Assembly: GCA_016931775.1 (NCBI GenBank) | Contig: JAFGEC010000184.1 | Span: forward strand, 1-42,805 | DNA length: 42,805 bases | Direction of reading: 5' to 3' | Source: Candidatus Zhuqueibacterota bacterium | GTDB lineage: Bacteria > Zhuqueibacterota > Zhuqueibacteria > Residuimicrobiales > JAFGEC01 | In this document: positions 1 to 40,737 of the stretch, piece after piece | How positions within the stretch are numbered: position 1 is the first letter of the stretch | Layout of the letters: each line of letters opens with the position of its first letter | Notes under the pieces: model-generated | Database searches by the model: none | What the model saw: the letters and a program-made list of their open reading frames with translations, nothing else | What the model was told of the DNA's origin: nothing | Made by a program: the position numbers and the translations under genes

Positions 1-1404
1 AATCAACTTGGTCATATCACCGGACAAGTATGGATCGATGAAAATCAAAATGGTATCCGGGAAACCGTGGAAAATGCAACGCCGCCCACCTATCAGGTCA
101 CCTTACTGGATGGAGGCGCTGGTGTTGTGAGTTCCATTATGACCTCATTATCAGGAGTGTATGAATTTTCTTCTGTACCTTTTGGGAATTATTCAATTCA
201 AATCACACCCATTTTATATTTTGGGTTCAGTCCCAAAGACCAGGGCGGAAATGATTTACTGGACAGCGATATAGACCCCATGACAGGTCAAACAGATATC
301 TTTATCGTCGATGCGGCTCAGAGTTATGTATTTGACGCCGGTATTCTTGTACTGGATTCCGACAATGACTTTATTCCCGACAGCACCGAAGTATCCGACG
401 ACCGGGATGATGACGATATCGTAAACTATCTTGATTTTGATCCCACCGGTTATCTGTATGATGAGGTGACCGGACAAATACTCTCCGGCGGATCGGTATT
501 GGTCACCGGGCCGGGCGTAGTAACTCTCATTCATGATGGTTCAGCAGGATTTTACCAATTTATCACAGATGGAACACCGGGACTGTATACGATACAAATC
601 ACACCGCCGCCGAATTATTTTTCCAGTTTGAGTTGCACCGCTGAAAGCCAGCCGCTGGATCCCACCGGGCAGACCAATCCGGTGGTTCTCGGTAACGGTG
701 AGGACGGTAATACCGGCTTTTTAACGTCCAACGCCTGTACACCGTTCTATTACACTTACAACTATGAGCCAGACGATCCGACCGTCATTAACAACAATTT
801 CCCATTTTATTCAATGGTCCCTGTAGAACTCTTCTCTTTCACGGCATCCTGTTCCAAAGGTGTCGTTTTTTTGGAATGGATCACACAATCCGAATCTGAA
901 AACCTGGGTTTCTTTGTATATCGTTCATTACAGCCGAACAGCGGATATGAAAAAATCACCCCGGTAATGATCCGAGGAGCAGGCAGTTCTGCCGTTAACA
1001 ACAAATACACATTTACGGATAAACCGGAAAAAACCGGTTGCACCTATTATTACAAGCTGGCGGATATCAGTTTTAATGGTGAAATAAAATATCATAATCC
1101 AATAGCGATAGAAGTCAAAAAACCTTTAGAGTATCGATTGGAGCAGAACTATCCCAATCCGTTTAATCCTGTTACAACCATTAGTTACAGCTTAAAACAA
1201 GCCGGATTCACTCGGCTCTTGATCTATAACATGAAAGGACAAATGATAAGAGATTTAATATCCGATGTGACGGACGCCGGCGAATACGATGTCGAGTGGG
1301 ACGGACGTGACAACAACGGTCACATTGTACCCAGCGGAACGTACCTCTATAGATTGCAGGTTCATGATTTTTGCCAAACGCGTAAGATGCTGCTGCTTAA
1401 ATAG
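1..1404 (+). CDS. Secreted protein with SdrD_B-like repeat segments and C-terminal type IX-like sorting domain; 5' end truncated by window
   Basis: Frame is open from base 1 (NQLGHITGQVWIDENQNGIRETVENATPP...), so the listed ATG at 67 is internal. The IxG.V..D.N.NG.R motif is typical of SdrD B-like domains. C-terminus NYPNPFNPVTTISY...RKMLLLK. Confidence 0.85.
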   Translation, partial: NQLGHITGQVWIDENQNGIRETVENATPPTYQVTLLDGGAGVVSSIMTSLSGVYEFSSVPFGNYSIQITPILYFGFSPKDQGGNDLLDSDIDPMTGQTDIFIVDAAQSYVFDAGILVLDSDNDFIPDSTEVSDDRDDDDIVNYLDFDPTGYLYDEVTGQILSGGSVLVTGPGVVTLIHDGSAGFYQFITDGTPGLYTIQITPPPNYFSSLSCTAESQPLDPTGQTNPVVLGNGEDGNTGFLTSNACTPFYYTYNYEPDDPTVINNNFPFYSMVPVELFSFTASCSKGVVFLEWITQSESENLGFFVYRSLQPNSGYEKITPVMIRGAGSSAVNNKYTFTDKPEKTGCTYYYKLADISFNGEIKYHNPIAIEVKKPLEYRLEQNYPNPFNPVTTISYSLKQAGFTRLLIYNMKGQMIRDLISDVTDAGEYDVEWDGRDNNGHIVPSGTYLYRLQVHDFCQTRKMLLLK

Positions 1405-1453
1405 CGCTGAATGGCCTTACGGATTTTTGCGGGTCTGATACGCTTATCATCTT

Positions 1454-1489
1454 GTTAAAATGAAGGCGCCTGCATAGCCTCATTTTAAC
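1454..1489. terminator. Hairpin between convergent genes, candidate bidirectional terminator
   Basis: GTTAAAATGAAGGC...GCCTCATTTTAAC, inverted repeat with a single bulged/mismatched base; lies between the convergent stops and overlaps the end of the minus-strand CDS. Confidence 0.5.
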
Positions 1490-2517
1490 AGCATCATCTT
1501 GCGGGATTCTGTAGACGAACCGGATCTCAGACGACAGAAATACACGCCACTGGCCGCCGGATTTGTGAATTCGTCTGTGCCGTTCCACATCACGGCGTGC
1601 TCACCCGCCGGCAGCACGCCGGAAACCAGCGTTTTAATCTTTTCACCTTGTATATTAAAAACATCGAGATTGACATAATCAGACTTTGCCAACACAAAAG
1701 ATATCGTGGTTGCCGGATTAAAAGGATTCGGGAAATTGGTGAATAAAGCATGGTGTTGAGGGGCTACAGTGGATTCGGCCGTCTTTACAGTTGTCGTCAA
1801 TTCTGCATATGTATCGGCAATACGGATTTCGTCGTAAAAAGACTCCGCTTGATCCGGGGGATTACCGCTGCCGATACGAATTCGGTTAAAACCGTTGCTT
1901 CCACGCCACTGCACACGAGCGGCCGCATCCACCGTGTCGGGCTCCACGTTGGGATCGGGATCGATCCATAAATAGGCAAGATCATTTGTCTTATCACCGG
2001 TCATTACAAGCTTGGTCACAAGCCACGCGCCATCATAAGCATCAAAACCGCTTGAAGAATCAATTCCGACACCGGTACCATCAAGACCCAGATTTCTGGT
2101 TGCCCACGGTTTGCCGATATATAAAAGCTCCGTGCTTCCCCTGAACAGGGACAATCCATTGTACGAATCGTTTACGTCGATATCATCGATCCGGATGTAG
2201 AGCATACTGATCCAGTATACCGATCCATCATCAGCCCACAACTCTGCCAGATTTCTGTAGGTGGTTCCGCCTTCACTGACCTCCAATATACCGCCGCGCT
2301 CCGTTATCTTTCCAAAATTCAAAAATTCGGCAAAGACCTGAACCACACCGCGCTCGGCCTGTTCCCAGGCACCACCCCAACCACCGGTAGCGTCTCCCTG
2401 CCCCGCAAGATCACCTTCAGGATAGTCAAAAGACTCGGTTAAAACGACCGCGCCGGCCGGCCAAACCAGCAGCAGTACATACAGAATCAAAAACCGCCAA
2501 AAGACATTTATCCGCAT
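1480..2517 (-). CDS. Secreted protein, unknown N-terminal (concanavalin/laminin G-like fold possible), with C-terminal sorting domain
   Basis: Signal peptide, NFPNPFNPATTISF...RKMMLLK C-terminus; AGGAGGAAAAAT RBS before the ATG. Confidence 0.8.
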   Translation of the reverse strand: MRINVFWRFLILYVLLLVWPAGAVVLTESFDYPEGDLAGQGDATGGWGGAWEQAERGVVQVFAEFLNFGKITERGGILEVSEGGTTYRNLAELWADDGSVYWISMLYIRIDDIDVNDSYNGLSLFRGSTELLYIGKPWATRNLGLDGTGVGIDSSSGFDAYDGAWLVTKLVMTGDKTNDLAYLWIDPDPNVEPDTVDAAARVQWRGSNGFNRIRIGSGNPPDQAESFYDEIRIADTYAELTTTVKTAESTVAPQHHALFTNFPNPFNPATTISFVLAKSDYVNLDVFNIQGEKIKTLVSGVLPAGEHAVMWNGTDEFTNPAASGVYFCRLRSGSSTESRKMMLLK

Positions 2518-2563
2518 ATTTTTCCTCCTCGTATATTAAGATTCAAAGTGCCGGACCTGTTAA

Positions 2564-3298
2564 CTATTTTAATTTTTCTTTCAATAAATTCACATATCGG
2601 CGGCTGATCACAAAAGGTTCTTCCACACCCCGTATAAAAATCCGCATAGCGTAATTGTACCAATTTTCCATTTTTTCAATATAGTCCAAATTCACAATCT
2701 TACTGCGATGAATGCGGGCAAAATACTGATCCGGCAGGCGTTCCTGCCACTCTTTCATTGTTTTTTGCGTCAATTCTTTTTGACCGTCCACAGTGGCGAC
2801 ATACGAATAATCTCCGGCAGCCGAAACGTATAATATAGAACACGTCTGTAAAAAACGATAACAGTCACCAAACAATAAAAACAATCGGTCGTCATAAGAC
2901 AACGGTCGGCTGATATCTCGACGGTTGTAATATTTTCCATCCAGTTTTTCCAACGCCTGCTGCAGTCGTGCCGGATGGACGGGTTTGAGTAAATAGTCCA
3001 GTGCATTCACCTCAAATGCCCGCAGGGCAAATTCATCATAGGCAGTAATAAAAATTATATGGGCTCTGATTTTCACTTTTTCCAGTAGATCGAATCCTGA
3101 TTCACCCGGCATTTGAATATCCAGGAAAATCACATCCGGACGTAACTTTTGAATGGCGGAAACGGCAGAAGGGACATCACACGCTTCGCCCACCACCTGT
3201 ATATTCTCATATTCGGCCAAATTTGAAATCAGATCCGCACGGGCAAGGCGCTCATCGTCGACAATGAGTGCTCTTTTAATCTGCAGATTTTTCATCAC
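2564..3298 (-). CDS. LytTR-family response regulator
   Basis: Receiver domain (ALIVDDERLARADL, VIFLDIQMPGESG, ITAYDEFALRAFEVNALDYLLKP) followed by a LytTR DNA-binding domain (IHRSKIVNLDYIEKM). Confidence 0.95.
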   Translation of the reverse strand: MMKNLQIKRALIVDDERLARADLISNLAEYENIQVVGEACDVPSAVSAIQKLRPDVIFLDIQMPGESGFDLLEKVKIRAHIIFITAYDEFALRAFEVNALDYLLKPVHPARLQQALEKLDGKYYNRRDISRPLSYDDRLFLLFGDCYRFLQTCSILYVSAAGDYSYVATVDGQKELTQKTMKEWQERLPDQYFARIHRSKIVNLDYIEKMENWYNYAMRIFIRGVEEPFVISRRYVNLLKEKLK

Positions 3299-39983: not shown

Positions 39984-40075
39984 TCTCATTATCAGGCCGG
40001 AATAATTGTGAAATAAAAAATTTTTAGGTTCATATGCAGTTTTGTATCTTGACTTTTTTTTATTCTTCTGTGATT

Positions 40076-40238
40076 CCTCGCGCAGAGAGCCGCCGGAACG
40101 CAGAGGAAGGCAAAAGTCAAGCACTTTGTAAAATTTTTAGTTTTTTCCATAATTCTACAAAAACCAAGCAGGAGGACCCAAAGCTTTAATCGAAATGATC
40201 TGTATAAAATCTCCGTACCTCTCCGGCTCTGCGCGAGG
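40076..40238. repeat. Imperfect intergenic inverted repeat
   Basis: CCTCGCGCAGAGAGCCGCCGG...AGAGG (40076-) versus CCTCTCCGGCTCTGCGCGAGG (-40238). Confidence 0.5.
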
Positions 40239-40329
40239 TTGAATGGAATTATACAGAAAAGTAAAAACCGAGGCGATTAGTTCGGTATATTTATAAAATC
40301 AAATAAAATTTCGGGGGATATCCTGAAAA

Positions 40330-40464
40330 GTAATATCTCAGTTATGGGTGGAAGGTGCGACGCACCAGCTTTCGACATCCTTACAAATATTAAAATCACA
40401 AAAATTTGGCAATAGGAGGTGCGTCGCACCTATCTATCTCTCCCACCCGTAACTGAGGTTTTAC
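40330..40464. mobile_element. 135-bp MITE with ~24-bp TIRs starting GTAA and 8-bp TSD (IS66-like ends)
   Basis: Left end GTAATATCTCAGTTATGGGTGGAA, right end (revcomp) GTAAAACCTCAGTTACGGGTGGGA (20/24 identical by eye); flanked by CCTGAAAA at 40322-40329 and 40465-40472; internal GGTGCGACGCACC / GGTGCGTCGCACC palindromes. Confidence 0.75.
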
Positions 40465-40737
40465 CCTGAAAATTTTTTCTACTTGATTTTTTCAATTTGA
40501 ATATCTATGTTTTACGAGAAATTATAAAGACCGAACATTGTTGCAGGGAAAACACCAATTGATCATTTATTCACGCTCCCGTCGAGATCGCAACGACACC
40601 TGTTCTCCGGAACAGGGCAAAACCACAAATTGTCTTTTTCAAATGATCGGAAGGATCAATTTTCCATTTCTCTATATGAAAAGTAATTCTATATATCCCA
40701 CTACAAAATTTTCCATGGCACTCTTTGAGACAGGATT

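Follow-up and report, generated by a model that had tools for sequence, protein, structure and literature searches.

Between two co-directional genes of the window, by which we mean the whole 42,805-nucleotide stretch of DNA analysed here, lies a 135-bp element whose interior contains no ORF as long as 60 aa and whose ends, GTAATATCTCAGTTATGGGTGGAA and (as the reverse complement) GTAAAACCTCAGTTACGGGTGGGA, form a 25-nt inverted repeat. The two arms are 84% complementary over their 25 nt and stand 85 nt apart; the terminal inverted repeat (TIR) starts with GTAA and can be written GTAAnnnCTCAGTTAyGGGTGG. The features of the locus are as follows:

40330..40464, + strand: MITE, 135 bp, non-autonomous (from the window sequence, its multiple copies in its own genome and the copy alignment)
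40330..40354, + strand: left terminal inverted repeat, core GTAATATCTCAGTTATGGGTGG (from inverted-repeat analysis)
40440..40464, - strand: right terminal inverted repeat, core GTAAAACCTCAGTTACGGGTGG, read on the minus strand
40322..40329, unstranded: left copy of the 8-bp target-site duplication CCTGAAAA
40465..40472, unstranded: right copy of the 8-bp target-site duplication CCTGAAAA
40354..40366, + strand: left sub-terminal palindrome GGTGCGACGCACC, belonging to an extended inverted repeat
40418..40430, - strand: right sub-terminal palindrome GGTGCGTCGCACC, the same motif inverted
40040..40327, - strand: adjoining copy of a second high-copy repeat, with a CAGGGTATCCCCC-type end at 40327; its other limit is approximate

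The first-pass annotation had described a 135-bp element with GTAA-starting TIRs and an exact 8-bp duplication, all of which can be read directly from the sequence as claimed. It had also stated that the window holds no transposase, and we agree: none is among the 25 Pfam families listed, of 44, for 30 window ORFs, nor did the window yield an IS66 transposase.

The genome to which the window belongs is a KSB1-type MAG of 7,225,944 bases in 713 contigs, 81% complete, and a BLAST search of the element against it returned 94 rows in all, shorter self-inverted matches included. Among these are 40 scored places that are full-length or near full-length at 81-100% identity, the best other copy having an E value of 5e-48, so that single-copy occurrence, which the annotation had named as an outcome that would speak against it, is excluded by dozens of copies. 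Matches to the TIR core CTCAGTTAYGGGTGG at no more than two mismatches number 217 in the same genome as against 6 for the reversed control, and about 78 distinct TIR outer flanks could be read. Because a copy has two ends, and one broken by the end of a contig may be counted twice, we claim only several dozen insertions. There are many cases in which a contig ends ~65-100 bp inside a copy, and the MITE thus contributes to the fragmentation of this MAG. Some copies or ends lie only ~8-11 bp apart (G000:C387 9514-9688, C157 4667-4718, C624 1-117 and C113 23995-24163), which suggests that the element has inserted more than once at the border of a copy already present.

An exact 8-bp duplication is present in 16 of the 23 copies that have both flanks, and the duplication matches at seven or more of its eight positions in 20 of them, whereas in a control, with the left flank of one copy set against the right flank of another, none of 506 combinations matched. 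Duplications of this length are the trace expected of a DDE transposase that cuts its target with an 8-bp stagger. Taken together with the multi-copy dispersal, they strongly support the identification of 40330-40464 as a MITE.

At the present locus the insertion is at the edge of the second high-copy repeat, the left flank of the MITE being the end of that repeat (CAGGGTATCCCCCAAAATTTTATTTATA...). The second family, for which there are ~40 scored matches and 147 first-look candidates in the same genome, begins CAGGGTATCCCCCAAAATTTTATTTATATTGAAAAACATACCG with a sharp start and contains CTCGCGCAGAG-type repeats (window 40040-40327 and L297-L326). Another MITE copy (L005) has a near-identical insertion point in the end of a different second-repeat copy, in the opposite relative orientation, and second-repeat copies that lack an insertion (L004, at 2351-2435, L011 and others) serve as empty sites of a paralogous kind; the nearest genomes compared are relatives at the level of the order. 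When only loci not fetched for the second-repeat motif are considered, 6 of 78 TIR outer flanks carry it (with up to three mismatches) compared with 1.4% of background 30-mers (P ~7e-4); the preference for second-repeat ends as a target that this would imply is modest and post hoc, and is to be taken with care.

The two near-palindromes noticed inside the element in the first pass are indeed present, GGTGCGACGCACC and GGTGCGTCGCACC being 13-mers with only these two sites in the window even when two mismatches are allowed. The motif lies 2 bp inward of the 22-bp TIR on the left and 12 bp inward on the right, and since its two copies have the same orientation relative to each end, they are simply the sub-terminal part of an extended inverted repeat. 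An alignment of 18 copies shows hardly any variation in the motif, and few columns are better conserved than those of the palindromes; either recent spread or a constraint on the DNA itself may account for this invariance. Two copies, L006 and L008, have an identical 3-bp insertion (CAT) in the palindrome, which one of them carries in its left arm and the other in its right, as if sequence were exchanged between the arms. Outside the element, the region 1380-3024 of a locus in an order-level relative (L055, G002:C189) includes a 211-bp tandem array and abounds in GGTGCGWCGCACC palindromes; allowing one mismatch, the MITE motif has 12 matches there in 3 kb, and in 820 kb of non-own loci it occurs elsewhere at four loci with one match each. 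The motif may therefore be a captured host repeat, a suggestion that we offer as a lead only.

Could the element instead be a functional RNA or regulatory element, in whose transcript the palindromes switch between local hairpins and long-range pairing? The conservation of the palindromes would fit such a role, as would the strength of folding, the two strands having predicted energies of -60.9 and -56.9 kcal/mol (z -9.5 and -7.3). Strong folding is, however, to be expected of any inverted repeat, and on both strands the predicted structure, by minimum energy as well as by centroid, has the two arms paired in one long hairpin. A covariation term of 0.18, with 1 of 31 pairs compensatory among the 18 aligned copies, and a search of Rfam that returned no match for the element also argue against a structured RNA. 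The proposed switching between alternative folds is thus not supported, and we regard an RNA element as very improbable. Still further from likely is an ordinary intergenic palindrome or terminator that merely resembles a transposon: the location between two co-directional genes would speak for it, but for practical purposes it is excluded by the dispersal of the copies, whose flanks differ and bear exact target duplications.

An assignment to the IS66 type is supported, albeit indirectly, by the GTAA...TCAG signature of the TIR, the 8-bp duplication, and a single locus in another genome. A TIR starting with GTAA has been given as a trait of the IS66 family (PMC11946415, PMC12898284), IS66 in Frankia gives 8-bp repeats (PMC11946415), and ISDge4, of the ISBst12 group, has the ends GTAACTGCTCAGCA and an 8-bp repeat (PMC12898284). 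It is with the single-ORF elements of this group that the MITE has GTAA...TCAG in common: in ISDge4 and in the elements of Vibrio-group plasmid transposases such as WP_089139921.1, GTAA is followed by TCA(G/C) at positions 9-12, as in the MITE, and the direct repeats are likewise of 8 bp. Several IS66 elements in class relatives end GTAACTRYTCAGC, one of which (L150) is flanked on either side by the duplication ATTTTTTG, and the Vibrio-group plasmid elements end GTAACCGTTCACC / GTAAGCGTTCACC, with an exact duplication AAATCAAA in one case (L283). The agreement between the MITE end and known IS66 ends extends to only 7-10 of the 14 terminal positions; the MITE TIR continues TTAyGGGTGG, which is on no complete IS66 element found here, and the MITE differs from the ISBst12 group in having no gene.

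The locus that provides the most direct connection (L273) is in a Sedimentisphaerales MAG of Planctomycetota type (G103), where the identical 22-bp TIR, GTAATGCCTCAGTTACGGGTGG, is found at position 150 and, 36 bp inside it, a truncated ORF for an IS66 transposase terminates with its stop codon. The ORF matches positions 248-283 of PF03050 (E 6.2e-6) and an IS66 subgroup profile (E 1.8e-23) and carries the IS66 C-terminal motif DNNRAERELR...KIS. In the ISBst12 group, too, the 3' end of the transposase is just inside one TIR. The remainder of this IS66 element is missing, and it is a single case from a phylum other than that of the window.

The affiliation proposed in the first pass thus has the TIR signature, the duplication and this remnant in its favour, while the complete IS66-like parent with the same TIR was not found. 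PF03050 has no match in the MAG of the window at E<=0.001 or even at E<=1, nor does the IS66 subgroup profile; PF03050 is present in 21 of the 99 relatives searched, and most of the TIR-rich KSB1 genomes searched have no match to it. As no IS66 transposase is detectable in the assembly, the source would have been lost, be unassembled or lie elsewhere. A search for TIR pairs 1-4 kb apart in this and related genomes yielded only MITEs or solitary ends, an IS66 C-terminal peptide had no match in viral contigs, and an IS66 alignment profile had none in the PDB. A contig of G037 with a DruA gene and a weak IS66 ORF beside the TIR resembled a parent but was set aside, since DruA is an accessory of several transposase types and, in the MAG of the window, has genes other than transposases as its neighbours. 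Weak PF03050 matches in G099 and G100, which by eye resemble other transposase families, were likewise set aside. DruA (PF14236) was also seen in a ~780-aa frame together with an apparent IS4-type transposase (L239, G012:C279, and L240, G106:C7), and it adjoins IS66 genes at L152 and L243.

That TIR-rich genomes, including that of the window, mostly lack detectable IS66 transposases could be taken to mean that another transposase family generating 8-bp duplications moved the MITE, the IS66-like TIR being coincidental and the planctomycetotal remnant an unrelated neighbour. Against this stand the remnant's stop codon, so close inside a perfectly matching TIR, and the identity of GTAA...TCAG with an ISBst12-group end, and we consider this alternative unlikely. 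The most probable reading, in which we have good confidence, is that of a MITE that depends on another element for its transposase, an IS66-type DDE enzyme recognising the two inverted ends. This enzyme would join the ends to a staggered target cut, the repair of which would leave the 8-bp duplication. Through the sub-terminal inverted repeats a single strand would fold back on itself as one long hairpin, and the palindromes were perhaps retained from the founding copy, or because they are bound by a protein. We infer that the copies were moved by an IS66-type enzyme acting in trans.

The same 22-bp end recurs on short elements with unrelated interiors in same-order and same-class relatives, other KSB1 families included, and it is found in records named KSB1, Calditrichaceae, 'Deferribacteres' MAG, Nitrospira, Acidobacteria gp11, Planctomycetota and Sedimentisphaerales, these being MAG record names in which binning errors are possible. 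Several MITEs with this TIR and other interiors have exact 8-bp duplications, including one of Planctomycetota (L213, GGCCGGGC) and those of G106 (AAATAAAA, GTTAAGTT and CTCCCTGG), and 8-bp duplications are also present in G100. TIR scans of genome contigs and viral contigs produced MITEs and solitary ends, together with a viral match that lacks a partner; the two IMG/VR matches (L223 and L224) have no paired TIR end. A broader and more doubtful proposal, which we hold only tentatively, is that IS66-type MITEs of several phyla form one group, defined by the end GTAAWRCCTCAGTTACGGGTGG, in which interiors are freely exchanged (here, one with the GGTGCGWCGCACC palindrome) and whose members persist at high copy number in genomes without a resident transposase, and hence would depend on a passing or hidden enzyme.

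MITEs with IS-like ends have been described before: MITECca01 is derived from ISCca4 (PMC9769881), and MITEPsy1 probably from ISPsy2 (PMC3189936). Like the MITE of the window, both are short, lack a transposase, have an IS-like TIR and occur in several copies. They differ from it in that their parents are in the same genome, whereas none was found here, and in that the TIR of the window MITE spans several phyla with unrelated interiors. In the literature searched, with partial coverage, we found no description of an IS66-derived MITE. The kind of element is therefore ordinary, and its interest is in the breadth of the shared end and in the missing partner. The locus provides a well-dispersed MITE, probably of IS66 type, in an uncultured phylum, and its TIR, being common to several phyla, can serve as a probe in the search for the missing transposase.
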